DNA of 64,000 bases. It comes from Thermoanaerobacteraceae bacterium (GTDB taxonomy: Bacteria; Bacillota; Thermoanaerobacteria; Thermoanaerobacterales; UBA4877). The stretch covers positions 1 through 64,000 of the forward strand of contig JASEJQ010000005.1 of the NCBI GenBank assembly GCA_030016635.1, read 5' to 3'. The notes beneath the pieces are model-generated. The model searched no databases, had not been told where the DNA came from, and saw only the letters and a list, made by a program, of their open reading frames with translations. How positions within the stretch are numbered: the first letter of the stretch is position 1; every line of letters starts with the position of its first letter. Shown here piece by piece: positions 44,530 to 60,774 of this stretch. The position numbers and the translations under genes are program-made.

Positions 44530-44737
44530 GAATGATAGCAGCATCCATGTACCTGGTCGCTCGTCTTGATACTCTAATGATTCGTGGCTGCTATTTGGCC
44601 GGGTGCGCCTCCATTCGGCGTCCTTGCCTTAAGGTCGGCTCATCTGGCGTCCATGCCAGATGCCCCGGCTACACTTGCCACTTATCAAGGGTATCATAGA
44701 CTCTCTTTAAGGTTGCATTTGATGCTCGCTATCATTC
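44530..44737 (+). repeat. Structured intergenic repeat, full copy D
   Basis: A 208-bp element filling most of the 343-bp gap between ctpA and the M23 peptidase gene. Its ends are inverted: GAATGATAGC...GCATC at the left, GATGC...GCTATCATTC at the right. Inside are a second stem (GATACTCT with a partner near 44690), GTGGC/GCCAC, a GCGCC/GGCGT hairpin and an ATCTGGC/GCCAGAT hairpin. It has no open frame. The same architecture recurs at 57665 and 60461. No other feature was seen in this gap apart from the terminator at 44807. Confidence 0.9.
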
Positions 44738-55412: not shown

Positions 55413-55994
55413 TCAAGCTTCATTCTGTTCTTCTTCTGACACCTCGGAGGCTCTGGTATATATAACACTTAGTATAACCTCATCAGGGTCTTCCTTTGTT
55501 TCAATTCCTTCAGGCAATCTAATATCTCTTACAAAAAGCGTATCGCCTATCTTCAGGTTGGAAACATCTACATTTATTTCTTCAGGAAGATTTTGTGGGT
55601 AACCAACCAATAAAAGCTCTCTCAGTTGATGCTGTATTATTCCCCCTTTGCTCTCCACAAGACCCTCACCTGTTACTACTATAGGAACATCCTTTTCAAT
55701 CTTTTCATTAAATGAGACCTGTTGAAAATCCATATGCAAGATCTCTCCTGATACCGGGTCCCTCTGTATTTCCTTTATAATCGCAGAAAATGTAGAACCA
55801 TTAATTATCAGGTTGCATATTGAGCTTCCACCATGGCGCGCCAGTATGTTGGTAGCATCTTTCTCGCTTACACAGATTGGCGTACTGCTAACATTTTTGC
55901 CGTATAGTACAGCAGGTATTTTTCCTTCCCTTCTGAGGTTTAAATTGTAATTCTTTCCCGGTTTCCTGGTATAGGCATTAATATCAACCGCCAT
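55413..55994 (-). CDS. rplY: Ribosomal protein L25/general stress protein Ctc
   Basis: A 193-aa two-domain L25/TL5/Ctc protein binding 5S rRNA. The N-terminal L25 domain (about residues 1-90, RKPGKNYNLNLRREGKIPAVLYGK) and C-terminal beta domain (about 95-185, VPIVVTGEGLVESKGGIIQHQLRELLLVGYP) are complete. A short acidic tail ends the protein. GGGAGG precedes the ATG. It is monocistronic, as is usual for a stress-linked ctc gene, though no SigB-type promoter was seen. Confidence 0.93.
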   Translation of the reverse strand: MAVDINAYTRKPGKNYNLNLRREGKIPAVLYGKNVSSTPICVSEKDATNILARHGGSSICNLIINGSTFSAIIKEIQRDPVSGEILHMDFQQVSFNEKIEKDVPIVVTGEGLVESKGGIIQHQLRELLLVGYPQNLPEEINVDVSNLKIGDTLFVRDIRLPEGIETKEDPDEVILSVIYTRASEVSEEEQNEA

Positions 55995-56198
55995 ATGTAT
56001 CCCTCCCTTGTTTTTCTTTTATATATAATTATAACACTTTATCTATTATTTCTACAAATAATATTCTGTAACAATAATTTTTAAATTATAGCTCCATTAA
56101 AATTTTTTAATAAAAAATTTCTAATTTTTTCAGAAGGATTTTTTATATCTATATCGAATAATAATTAATCAAATGTGTATATACCTTAATCAGTTCAC

Positions 56199-56293
56199 GT
56201 GGAAGGATACCTAGGGTTCCGGCATGTATTGCGTCTGTGACCGAGCGGTATCATAATACACCGTAGGTACAAAAGACCATCGGCAAGTTCCAC
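56199..56293 (+). promoter_or_regulatory. ykkC-family riboswitch aptamer, probably ppGpp-responsive (subtype 2a)
   Basis: The outer helix is GTGGAA (56199-56204) with TTCCAC (56288-56293). Inside lie the hallmark CTAGGGTTCCG, then GACCGAGCG, ACCGTAGG and AAAAGACCATCGG, all ykkC-class features. Guanidine-I, PRPP and ppGpp subtypes share this fold. The ppGpp subtype is known to control branched-chain amino-acid synthesis and transport genes, and the next gene is livK. The 3' strand of the outer helix also forms the 5' arm of the terminator, so ligand binding should switch expression ON. The region 55995-56198 upstream is AT-rich and presumably holds the promoter. Confidence 0.8.
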
Positions 56294-56315
56294 TCATAGT
56301 GGGGCTTGTTTTTTT
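56284..56315 (+). terminator. Riboswitch-controlled intrinsic terminator before livK
   Basis: CAAGTTCCAC (56284-56293) pairs with GTGGGGCTTG (56299-56308), including two G-U pairs, around a TCATA loop. Seven T residues follow. It shares 56288-56293 with the aptamer's closing helix, so the two are mutually exclusive. Confidence 0.85.
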
Positions 56316-56407
56316 ATACTTTAAAGGGGGTGATTGCCAAAATCGACATTTATATTATTAAAGTGCTTTTACTTAATATTAAATCAAAAAAAATTGGGGG
56401 AATAAGA

Positions 56408-57583
56408 ATGGGTAAAAGATTTTATCTTGCTCTGGCAATGGTTTTGGTAGTCGCCTTGCTCGTGAGTGCATGCGGAGGCAGTCAAACTCAGCAGAGTTCG
56501 CAGCCGGCGCAACAGAACAGCAGTAGTCAGAAATCAGAAAGTAAAGGACCTTTAAAGCTTGGTATGGTAGGCCCGTTGACAGGCAATACAGCCACGTACG
56601 GTACCAGCGTAAAAAATGGTGTTGAGATAGCAGTAGATGAGTTTAACGCCAATGGCGGATATAACGGTCAGACAGTAGAACTTGTTGCAGAGGACAGCCG
56701 TGGTGATCAGACAGAAGCCAGCAACGCAACAAGGAAGCTCATAGAACAGGATAAGGTGTTTGCCATTGTTGGTGCGGTTTTAAGCAGTGAGACACTAACT
56801 GCGGCACCAACAGCCAATGATGCCGGTATACCAATGATAAGCCCTTCAGCTACAGCTCCAGGGGTACCAGAGGTAGGACCATATATTTTCAGAAACTGTA
56901 TTGCAGATAATGTCCAGGCAGCTCAGATGGCTGAATATGCGGCTAAAGAGCTTGGTTTAAAGAAATTTGCAGTTATGTATACAAACAATGACTACGGCCT
57001 GGCCCTTAAGAACGCCTTTACAAATACAGCTCAAAACCTGGGTGAGGTAGTGGGTGTAGAAGCATATATGGATGGTGACAACGACTTCAGGGCCCAGCTT
57101 TCAAAACTGAAGCAGCAAAACCCCGATGCCCTCTATATAGGTGGCTACTATACAGAGGCAGCCAAGATAGCACAGCAGGCAAAGCAGCAGGGACTTGACA
57201 AGGTTGTAATACTGGGTGGTGACGGTTTCTATTCACCACAACTTGTTGAGCTGGGTGGAGATGCGGTAGAAGGTGCTGTATTTACCGCAGGGTTCTTCTC
57301 TGGTGACACTGCAGATCCTGTGCAGAGATTCGTGTCAGCTTACAAGGCCAAGTTCAATGCTGAACCTGATATGTTTGCAGCTCAGGCCTATGATGCTGCA
57401 AATATAGTATTAACCGCTTTAAAGGCAGCTGGTCCTGATTCAAAGGCTATTATGGAAAAAATGGCTGCTACCAAGGATTTCCCTGGCATCACCGGTACCA
57501 CATCCTTTGATGAGCAGGGCGATGCTGTAAAACAGGTATTAATCCTGAAGGTTGAAAACGGCAAATTCAATAAGTTGAGATAA
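56408..57583 (+). CDS. livK: Branched-chain amino-acid ABC transporter binding lipoprotein
   Basis: A 391-aa LivK/LivJ-type periplasmic-binding-fold protein tethered as a lipoprotein: signal with lipobox VSAC and Cys22, then a Gln/Ser-rich linker and two lobes (LKLGMVGPLTGNTATYGTSVKNGVEIAVDEFN, IPMISPSATAP). GGGGGA is 7 nt before ATG 56408. The frame is open back to 56306, but that would begin inside the riboswitch terminator, so it is rejected. Expression is probably controlled by the upstream aptamer. Confidence 0.94.
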   Translation: MGKRFYLALAMVLVVALLVSACGGSQTQQSSQPAQQNSSSQKSESKGPLKLGMVGPLTGNTATYGTSVKNGVEIAVDEFNANGGYNGQTVELVAEDSRGDQTEASNATRKLIEQDKVFAIVGAVLSSETLTAAPTANDAGIPMISPSATAPGVPEVGPYIFRNCIADNVQAAQMAEYAAKELGLKKFAVMYTNNDYGLALKNAFTNTAQNLGEVVGVEAYMDGDNDFRAQLSKLKQQNPDALYIGGYYTEAAKIAQQAKQQGLDKVVILGGDGFYSPQLVELGGDAVEGAVFTAGFFSGDTADPVQRFVSAYKAKFNAEPDMFAAQAYDAANIVLTALKAAGPDSKAIMEKMAATKDFPGITGTTSFDEQGDAVKQVLILKVENGKFNKLR

Positions 57584-57911: not shown

Positions 57912-58781
57912 ATGTTCTTCGATCAGTTGATAAACAGCCTTACACTGGGCAGCACCTATGCCCTGATAGCACTGGGATATACCATGGTATATGGGATACT
58001 TCAATTGATAAATTTTGCTCATGGTGAGATATACATGACAGGGGCGTTTATAGGACTTATCATGGTGAGTTATTTTCATCTTCCCTTTTATATAGCATTC
58101 ATCATAGCCATGGCTGGCTCTGCTGCTTTAGGGGTATGCGTGGAAAAGATAGCCTATAAGCCGCTCAGGGAATCTCCCCGGCTTACCCTGCTTATAAGTG
58201 CCATAGGCATGTCAATATTCTTGCAAAACTCAGCACTTATTATAGCCGGTCCTGCGGCCAGGCCGTTTTCCAAGAATATAGACTACAGCAGCTTTACCAT
58301 AGGCAGCATACACATATCTATGCTGCAAATAACCATAATAGCTGTCTCTATACTTATGATGCTTGGCCTTCATTTTCTCATAATGAGGACAAAGATAGGC
58401 AAGGCCATGAGAGCCACATCCTATGACCAATCTGCAGCTAAACTCATGGGAATAGACATAGATAATGTTATCTCGGCTACCTTTGCACTTGGGTCTGCCC
58501 TTGGTGCAGCCGCTGGTGTATTGATAGGTCTCTATTTCAACTCTGTAGACCCAATGATGGGTGCCATGCCGGGCCTGAAGGGTTTTATAGCAGCTGTGGT
58601 AGGCGGTATAGGCAATATACCCGGCGCTGTACTGGGCGGTCTTCTCCTTGGTGGCGCAGAGGTATTTGGCACCATATATCTATCATCATATAAAGATGCT
58701 ATTGCATTTACCCTCCTGATTGTAATACTGCTTTTAAAGCCTTCCGGTCTGATGGGCAGTACAGTCAGAGAAAAGGTATAG
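57912..58781 (+). CDS. livH: Branched-chain amino-acid ABC permease LivH
   Basis: A membrane permease of 289 aa with about eight helices. The family opening is LINSLTLGSTYALIALGYTMVYGILQLINFAHGEIYM. The cytoplasmic coupling loop RTKIGKAMRATSYDQSAAKLMGID and the later GLKGFIAAVVGGIGNIPGAVLGGLLLG are clear. GAGGTGA precedes the ATG. livM follows after 13 nt. Confidence 0.95.
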   Translation: MFFDQLINSLTLGSTYALIALGYTMVYGILQLINFAHGEIYMTGAFIGLIMVSYFHLPFYIAFIIAMAGSAALGVCVEKIAYKPLRESPRLTLLISAIGMSIFLQNSALIIAGPAARPFSKNIDYSSFTIGSIHISMLQITIIAVSILMMLGLHFLIMRTKIGKAMRATSYDQSAAKLMGIDIDNVISATFALGSALGAAAGVLIGLYFNSVDPMMGAMPGLKGFIAAVVGGIGNIPGAVLGGLLLGGAEVFGTIYLSSYKDAIAFTLLIVILLLKPSGLMGSTVREKV

Positions 58782-58794
58782 GAGGGGCTGAGTA

Positions 58795-59691
58795 ATGAGT
58801 GGTTATTATTCACAGATTATTATTATAACGGGCATAAATATACTGCTGGCCATGGGGTTAAACCTGATAACCGGATATACAGGCCAGCTTTCTTTGGGTC
58901 ATGCCACATTTATGGGCATAGGTGCCTATACCTCATCCCTTTTGACAAAGGCCGGACTTCCATTTTATATCTCCCTCTTAGCAGGAGTTCTTATTGCATC
59001 CCTCTTTGGCCTGGCCATAGGCATGCCTACCCTAAGGCTCAGAGGCGACTACCTTGCCATTGCCACTCTTGGGTTCGGTGAAATAGTAAGGACTTTCTTA
59101 AACAACCTGAGTATAACCGGTGGACCCAATGGTATAAGGGCCATACCATTAAAGACAGACCTTACAACTGTTATCATACTCACAGCGGTATGTTTTTATC
59201 TTTTATACAGGCTCCAATCATCAAGGCTTGGAAAGGTGATGAGGGCAATAGGCCAGGATGAGATTGCCTCTGAGGCTACCGGCGTAAACTCCTCCTATTA
59301 TAAAATCATGGCATTCGTAATAGGAGCTGGCCTGGCAGGTATGGCAGGAGGCCTCTATGCCCATTATTTCAGGTATATAAACCCTGCGAACTTTACATTT
59401 AATAAGTCTATAGAAATACTTTGTATGGTCGTATTAGGAGGTCTGGGTAACCCATTCGGGCCGGTTGTGGGCGGAGTAATCATCAGTATCCTTCCCGAGG
59501 CTTTGAGGAACATATCTCCCGTGGTTTCTCAATACAGGATGGTACTCTATGGGGTGATATTGATTGTGATGATGATAATAAGGCCGCAAGGCATACTTGG
59601 CGGGAACGGCTTATTCATCAACGCAAATCGTAAAGGAAATTTTAAAATCTTCAGATCGGTCAAGGGAGCTGTCAAAAATGCGGATTCTTAA
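58795..59691 (+). CDS. livM: Branched-chain amino-acid ABC permease LivM
   Basis: The second permease, 298 aa and multi-pass: GLNLITGYTGQLSLGHATFMGIGAYTSSLL, PTLRLRGDYLAIATLGFGEIVR, the coupling loop SSRLGKVMRAIGQDEIASEATGVN, and GGLGNPFGPVVGGVII. It is slightly short at the N-terminus against many LivM proteins, which have extra helices, but the core is complete. GGAGG precedes the ATG. The 3' end overlaps livG by 14 nt. Confidence 0.95.
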   Translation: MSGYYSQIIIITGINILLAMGLNLITGYTGQLSLGHATFMGIGAYTSSLLTKAGLPFYISLLAGVLIASLFGLAIGMPTLRLRGDYLAIATLGFGEIVRTFLNNLSITGGPNGIRAIPLKTDLTTVIILTAVCFYLLYRLQSSRLGKVMRAIGQDEIASEATGVNSSYYKIMAFVIGAGLAGMAGGLYAHYFRYINPANFTFNKSIEILCMVVLGGLGNPFGPVVGGVIISILPEALRNISPVVSQYRMVLYGVILIVMMIIRPQGILGGNGLFINANRKGNFKIFRSVKGAVKNADS

Positions 59692-60430
59692 AGGAAGTAA
59701 ATTAACCATGAAATTTGGTGGGCTTAAGGCGGTAAACAGTGTTGACTTCCACCTGGACAATGGCGAAATATTAAGCCTCATAGGCCCCAATGGTGCCGGC
59801 AAGACTACCCTCTTTAATCTCTTAACCGGCATCTATACTCCTACTGAAGGAAATATCTATATGGACGAAAAGGATATAACCGGCTCAAAACCTTATAGTA
59901 TTGCCTCCATGGGCATCACCAGGACATTTCAGAATATCAGGCTGTTTTCAGATATGAGCGTGGAAGATAATATAATGATGGGGCTTCACAGCAGGATAGG
60001 CGCGCCGTTTTTGGGGAGTATTATACCTACCCCATCCTCCATTAAGGCAAACCGATTCGCAAAGGAAAGGTTGGACTGGGTTTTAAACTATCTTGGACTA
60101 TACAGCCTGCGGAAAGAAAAGGCAAAAAACCTTCCCTATGGCCTTCAGAGGAGGCTGGAAATAGGGCGAGCTATAGCCCCAGAGCCAGAGGTACTCCTCC
60201 TGGATGAGCCTGCTGCTGGTATGAACCCCCAGGAAACCAATGAACTCATGGGACTTATCCATGACCTGAGAAATAAAGGCATTACAATCCTGCTGATTGA
60301 GCATGACATGAAGCTGGTCATGGGTATATCCGATAGGGTCATGGTATTGAATTATGGTGAAAAGATTGCTGATGGGAAACCGGAAGAGGTAAAGCAAAAT
60401 CCGGAGGTAATAAAGGCTTACCTGGGCTAA
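59678..60430 (+). CDS. livG: Branched-chain amino-acid ABC ATPase LivG
   Basis: An ATPase of 250 aa with Walker A GPNGAGKTTLFNLLTG, the LivG-type insert (TGSKPYSIASMGITRTFQNIRLFSDMSVEDNIMMGLH), signature LPYGLQRRLEIGRAIAPEP and Walker B VLLLDEPAAGMNPQE. GGGAG is spaced for ATG 59678; the 27-codon-longer frame would lie deep in livM. The partner ATPase gene livF, which normally follows, is absent here. A repeat element and an unrelated gene come next. Confidence 0.94.
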   Translation: MRILKGSKLTMKFGGLKAVNSVDFHLDNGEILSLIGPNGAGKTTLFNLLTGIYTPTEGNIYMDEKDITGSKPYSIASMGITRTFQNIRLFSDMSVEDNIMMGLHSRIGAPFLGSIIPTPSSIKANRFAKERLDWVLNYLGLYSLRKEKAKNLPYGLQRRLEIGRAIAPEPEVLLLDEPAAGMNPQETNELMGLIHDLRNKGITILLIEHDMKLVMGISDRVMVLNYGEKIADGKPEEVKQNPEVIKAYLG

Positions 60431-60460
60431 AATTAATTTGGATTTAAGAAGTCTTTATTA

Positions 60461-60668
60461 GCATGCAAGCAGCATCCATGTGCCTGATCGCTCGTCCTGA
60501 TACTCTAATATTTGCCACTGCATTTCGCAGGGTACGCCTCCATTCGGCGTCACAAGCCTTAAGATCGGCTCATCTGGCGTCCTTGCCAGATGCCCCTGCT
60601 CCACTTGTTGCAAATCCAAGAGTATCATGGACTCTCTTTAAGGCCACATTTGATGCTGCATGTCATGC
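60461..60668 (+). repeat. Structured intergenic repeat, full copy G
   Basis: A 208-bp element in the 344-bp gap after livG. Ends: GCATG..AGCAGCATC at left, GATGCTGCATGTCATGC at right. The second stem GATACTCT/AGAGTATC is perfect, ATTTGC pairs with GCAAAT, and the core carries ACGCC/GGCGT and CATCTGGC/GCCAGATG hairpins. No gene lies in this gap. Confidence 0.92.
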
Positions 60669-60774
60669 TCTAAAGTCTAAATTTGTTAAAAACATATTCA
60701 TCTCGTAATATATTTTCGTTACTCTAAGAAGGATTTTATCAATTTTTGTCAAAATATATAACGAGGTGAATTTC

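Follow-up and report, generated by a model that had tools for sequence, protein, structure and literature searches.

The leader of livK is very probably a ppGpp-class riboswitch (ykkC subtype 2a) that switches transcription on and has no P2 helix, and its sequence and position suggest that it controls livKHMG. This ykkC subtype-2 RNA lies at 56199-56315 (+ strand), directly 5' of livK-livH-livM-livG, in the 64,000-nucleotide stretch of DNA analysed here (the window). To judge from the subtype-marking bases and the gene context, its ligand is most likely ppGpp. What is new is the helix loss in this leader and in its counterpart in a related genus. The class and its link to livK were already known, since in vivo work with B. 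subtilis reporters has made use of a (p)ppGpp aptamer of Oxobacter pfennigii livK (PMC12373219) and ykkC-2 RNAs precede six other LivK-like genes.

Class and architecture of the livK leader

The preliminary description of this DNA had assigned the leader to the ykkC family on the basis of two motifs and a closing helix. In support of this, both motifs were found exactly, CTAGGGTTCCG at 56211-56221 and GACCGAGCG at 56239-56247, as was the closing helix P0 (GTGGAA, 56199-56204, with TTCCAC, 56288-56293). Note that the 11-mer CTAGGGTTCCG is not significant alone, with 0.42 chance matches expected per window at up to one mismatch. The core sequence and the helices P1, P1a, P1b and P3 of ykkC subtype 2 are all present as well. 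We built a covariance model, R1, from 74 aligned ykkC subtype-2 RNAs that were gathered by DNA pattern from named genomes. The window RNA scored 75.6 bits at full length (1-120; E 8e-19 per genome), which, like the 91.7 bits of the single paralogue in the same genome (G000:C20:22266-22386), is partly by construction, since both RNAs are in the training alignment; the Rfam match described below is independent. Across the 74 RNAs, the 27-pair structure is paired in 87.8% of cells, with changes on both sides in 21 pairs, and its covariation score is 0.50, whereas shuffling gave 0.21 and sliding the structure gave no more than 0.22. P0 itself is paired in 90.1% of cells, with double changes in five of its six pairs.

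The elements of the RNA follow each other on the + strand (single bases and short helices are given by the last three digits of their window position). The 5' strand of P0 pairs with 56288-56293 in the minimum free energy (MFE) structure of transcripts ending at 56293-56300. The segment 56206-56252, which contains CTAGGGTTCCG and GACCGAGCG, forms P1 (206-211/247-252), P1a (214-215/241-242) and the P1b hairpin (222-224/230-232), and carries C246, identified by alignment as the subtype-2 marker. The linker ATAAT (56253-56257) occupies the usual place of the P2 hairpin, whose absence was established by linker-length comparison and from the orthologue described below. The segment 56258-56287 includes ACACCG (56258-56263), P3 (266-268/276-278), AAAAG (56271-56275), U280 and CGGCAAG, placed with two alignments (A1 and A2), and numbering and roles were taken from PMC6031431 and PMC10687018; aligned within it is C259, the predicted pairing partner of the ppGpp guanine.

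An orthologous leader and operon (L153) are present in another genus of the family (genome G001), where LivK is 89% identical. The ATAAT linker is the same and the terminator arms are largely conserved. The P1 pair C210-G248 is replaced by U-A in this orthologue, a double compensatory change, and with A292G a G-U pair is retained in P0 as well as in the terminator.

Terminator, switching and the liv operon

The preliminary description had also proposed that TTCCAC is common to the closing helix and a terminator, and that ligand binding would prevent termination; the sharing was found, and the alternative pairings and the order of the folding energies agree with the ON-type logic. The intrinsic terminator (56284-56315, + strand) has a stem at 56284-56293/56299-56308, whose 5' arm includes the 3' strand of P0 (56288-56293), followed by a U-tract (seven T in the DNA) at 56309-56315. 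No other terminator-like site was found in 55990-56430 (0.2 expected), and 92 bases separate the end of this one from the start of livK (56408). For transcripts ending at 56293-56300 the MFE structure is the aptamer with P0 (-27.3 to -28.4 kcal/mol, with no ligand terms); in the transcript ending at 56308 the terminator wins (-38.1 kcal/mol). The full leader reaches -40.6 kcal/mol, and the terminator hairpin alone -16.1. The terminator is favoured once its second arm is made, as in an ON switch, where the ligand must hold P0.

We propose that the aptamer would fold first and be closed by P0. When no ligand is bound, the later-made arm GTGGGGCTTG would invade TTCCAC, the terminator would form and transcription would stop at 56309-56315. 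Under amino-acid shortage, RelA/SpoT would make ppGpp, whose guanine is predicted to pair with C259, in the space filled by G96 in PRPP aptamers, and whose pyrophosphate would sit on A204, G205 and G287 at the P3-P0 junction. The ligand would thereby keep P0 shut, and the polymerase would read through into livK. Competition between the closing helix and a terminator is the published mechanism of a ppGpp riboswitch (PMC10687018).

Between the terminator and the livK start we noticed a Shine-Dalgarno-like AAAGGGGGTGAT at 56323-56334. A block of 24 nucleotides, GGGGTGATTGCCAAAATCGACATT (56327-56350), is identical in the second genus (L153:2096-2180), with a diverging downstream flank, and within 56323-56405 there is a possible short Leu/Ile-rich frame from TTG at 56334 to TAA at 56405. 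Downstream of the terminators of L014, L107, L004, L154 and L169 there are similar sites (GGNGGTGAT), and that of L014 comes with an ATG frame, MVVIFSFVYSVNLLTL.

The operon encodes amino-acid transport proteins, as is expected downstream of subtype 2a RNAs. On the + strand, livK (56408-57583; Pfam Peripla_BP_6, E 2.9e-77) encodes a lipoprotein-type branched-chain amino acid (BCAA) binding protein, and it is followed by the permease genes livH (57912-58781) and livM (58795-59691) and the ATPase gene livG (59678-60430), identified with Pfam and NCBIfam. No livF is present in the operon (57912-60763), either here or in G001; the next gene is mogA-like, and LivF-like ATPases are encoded on other contigs (C20, C59 and C114).

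The genome encodes a RelA/SpoT protein (866 bits). Moreover, ilvC was undetected in the source genome, which is 100% complete by estimate, and in G001, while it was found in all 14 control genomes. Thus, the cell probably depends on branched-chain amino acids from outside, and it would make sense for their uptake to be increased by a starvation signal. The presence of RelA/SpoT, the undetected ilvC and the downstream livKHMG are all consistent with the starvation-activated uptake suggested in the preliminary description.

Subtype-marking bases and the probable ligand

At gathering thresholds, Rfam gave no match at the livK leader, and Rfam 15 queries at these loci returned no subtype-2 family. 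At relaxed thresholds the sole credible match was Guanidine-I (RF00442), with 34.3 bits (E 1e-4 over 321 bases) against a gathering score of 63. In the terms of the preliminary description, which held a best score for guanidine-I against the ppGpp reading, this match is nominally a refutation; it is not one because the pocket adenine is a C. Thus, the window RNA shares with the Guanidine-I riboswitch the CUAGGGUUCCG core, the CAC-G element and the AAAAG loop, but it has C246 in place of the required pocket adenine, A46. Guanidine-I RNAs carry adenine where subtypes 2a and 2b carry a pyrimidine, and P0, missing from guanidine-I, is an addition in subtypes 2a and 2b (PMC6031431; PMC5912903). Taking the RNA for guanidine-I because this is its only Rfam match was rejected on account of C246 and the score below the cut-off. 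A guanidine-I riboswitch in front of an importer of guanidine or urea has, in our judgement, a negligible chance of being correct, since the same RNA differs in base, helix and score and the transporter does not fit either: LivK scores 171 bits with NCBIfam PRK15404 versus 75 bits with UrtA, and it matches solved BCAA-binding proteins, the best PDB match being 3td9. A urea or guanidine transporter was rejected for the same two reasons. Most of the subtype-2 RNAs checked also fall below the 63-bit cut-off. There is thus a gap in annotation: the window RNA is left uncalled by Rfam 15, whose only ykkC model cuts off at that score.

The bases that mark the subtypes point to ppGpp. Position 49 is a pyrimidine (C246), and P0 is shared with the expression platform. 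G96 is present in >97% of PRPP RNAs and not in ppGpp RNAs (PMC6031431; PMC5912903); its counterpart is U280 in the register A279-U280-C281, and also U in the orthologue, an assignment that depends on the register of P3. The guanine-pairing C75 (C69 in Cba) corresponds to C259, and the ligand-contact bases A5, G6, G48 and G105 are kept as A204, G205, G245 and G287. The counterpart of G104 is A286, likewise an A in 12 of the 26 RNAs found in BCAA context. At the base of P3, A265 faces A279, which is the arrangement in most purine-context RNAs; all 26 BCAA-context RNAs have G-C there.

We also scored the RNA with a position profile whose labels are downstream genes (26 BCAA biosynthesis, 16 purine), not ligand data; the downstream proteins were grouped by mutual BLAST and the families named from their sequences. 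The profile ignores the P2 and P1b columns, and the window RNA and the livK-type leaders are outside the labelled set. In leave-one-out scoring the 26 BCAA and 16 purine RNAs were split without error, the BCAA RNAs scoring +23.8 or more and the purine RNAs -16.1 or less. The window RNA scored +27.7, within the BCAA range, which measures likeness to BCAA-context RNAs, not binding; its strongest negative votes came from the columns of A265 and A279. Seven held-out leaders of livK or similar binding-protein genes scored from +1.4 to +52.0, the outlier among the livK leaders being L033 at +1.4. We noticed two exceptions to the simple PRPP/ppGpp rule, L091 and L023 (ilvB-like and ilvE-like context), in which position 96 or the one beside it appears to be G.

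In the seven loci with PRPP-type RNAs that were checked (L077, L108, L124, L162 and L175-L177), a guanine aptamer lies directly 5' of these RNAs, twice each in L077 and L108. With Rfam, neither a Purine (guanine) aptamer upstream of the livK leader nor a T-box in front of livK was found in the window. The choice of ppGpp over PRPP and guanidine, made in the preliminary description, is therefore favoured by C246, P0, U280, C259, the profile score and the lack of an upstream guanine aptamer.

The ppGpp riboswitch (ykkC subtype 2a) was reportedly described by Sherlock, Sudarsan and Breaker in 2018. Like the ppGpp riboswitch of Cba (PMC10687018) and the O. pfennigii livK aptamer (PMC12373219), the window RNA combines the conserved core, C at position 49 and P0 with the lack of G96, the guanine-pairing C, a terminator sharing the closing helix and a BCAA transport gene downstream. 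It differs from them in having no P2 hairpin and A-A, not G-C, at the base of P3; moreover, it has A286 where the T. mathranii RNA has G104.

Absence of P2 and the alternative readings

The preliminary description was right about the class and helices of the element but overlooked the absence of P2. In PMC5912903, P1, P2 and P3 are called characteristic of ykkC RNAs, and the published description gives these RNAs a four-way junction and three hairpins. The P2 hairpin and the four-way junction, a consensus feature and not a listed ligand contact, are missing from the window RNA. Only ATAAT is present between P1 and ACACCG. GAGCG and ACACCG are separated by 10 nt, whereas the separation is 17 nt or more in every other recognisable ykkC-2 RNA from the named set. 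Two further short-linker rows of that set, L032 and L119, were discarded because on inspection they are not ykkC RNAs. The window RNA is thus a P2-less variant, not a canonical 2a member, and loss of P2 would leave a three-way junction. The leader of L107, whose LivK is one of the six LivK-like proteins mentioned above and is 61% identical to that of the window, has its P2 intact. A text search of the literature for P2-less or three-way-junction ykkC RNAs gave nothing relevant, although P2 may have been described as optional elsewhere.

We then scanned 399 genomes of the phylum with an exact pattern, and found the short linker in four genomes and the long one in 47. The other three short-linker genomes, all of one other family (f43), have PRPP-type RNAs before purine operons (L175, L176 and L177). 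Like the window RNA these have lost P2, with a GAGCG-ACACCG linker of 11-14 nt, but they carry G96, form tandems with guanine aptamers and precede purD-purE or purD-purK-purE. Little or no P2 is present also in a fourth f43 genome (G075) and in G210, of another family. With the wider R1 scan, subtype-2 RNAs were found in 232 of the 399 genomes, and linkers were measured in part of these, which gives no more than a rough estimate of how often P2 is lost. From these comparisons, two or more losses of P2 are probable, affecting two ligand subtypes. It is likely that ykkC RNAs can do without a four-way junction, and the P2-less form would offer a smaller aptamer for (p)ppGpp sensors. P2 is also missing or tiny in the PRPP-type RNAs L183 and L186, and in another PRPP-type RNA (L156:4835-4943) P1b is shortened instead (AGGGCAAGATTGTCCGAG), so a further helix appears reducible.

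Could the leader be a PRPP riboswitch (subtype 2b) that switches the operon on as PRPP accumulates? The window RNA resembles the T. mathranii structure (PMC6031431) in fold, P0, A-A at the base of P3 and a similar core, and the P2-less form is known here from the PRPP-type RNAs of f43. However, it has U280 for G96, scores +27.7 where purine-context RNAs reach at most -16.1, precedes BCAA genes and not genes for purine biosynthesis or transport, and has no tandem guanine aptamer, which makes this reading highly improbable. Another nucleotide ligand, either that of the NDP type (subtype 2c) or, with a selectivity not described so far, one preferred to ppGpp (for instance pppGpp or pGpp), is also improbable, if less so. 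Among the RNAs compared, only the window RNA and its G001 orthologue join the PRPP-like A-A with U96 and P2 loss, and natural aptamers vary in their preference for pppGpp versus ppGpp (PMC12373219); against this, the guanine-pairing C259 is retained, and 2c RNAs precede NUDIX and HAD hydrolase genes, not amino-acid transporters, with livKHMG found here. The loss of P2 and an R1 score below that of the paralogue could also mean decay, the leader now being a constitutive terminator or attenuator with no ligand. We consider this very improbable, since the pocket bases are kept, the change in P1 is compensatory between the genera, that at 292 is compatible with both structures, and P2-less RNAs also precede intact purine operons in another family.

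A riboswitch of the ppGpp class therefore remains the preferred reading. The P2-less leader with A-A at the base of P3 and U96 might even represent a ykkC sub-lineage of its own, with a minimal aptamer built on a three-way junction. Such an RNA would parallel in nature the engineered G96A PRPP-to-ppGpp switch and have a selectivity or speed unlike that of standard ppGpp riboswitches, but we regard this as rather unlikely.

Several other RNAs were noticed. The second ykkC-2 RNA of the same genome (L001; L169:3267-5903) is located before genes for a multi-pass membrane protein and an M20-type amidohydrolase. The membrane protein, with no Pfam or NCBIfam match at 1e-5, follows ykkC-2 RNAs also in G001 (L154) and L082, and is a candidate amino-acid or peptide transporter under ppGpp control. 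In L076:5946-6360 (- strand) a ykkC-2 RNA and then a T-box leader precede a livK-like gene, and T-boxes are also found upstream of ykkC-2 RNAs in L018 and L041. Finally, the window contains a TwoAYGGAY RNA at 44554-44710 (- strand; 47.3 bits, cut-off 43), between genes for an M23-type peptidase and a ctpA-like protease.
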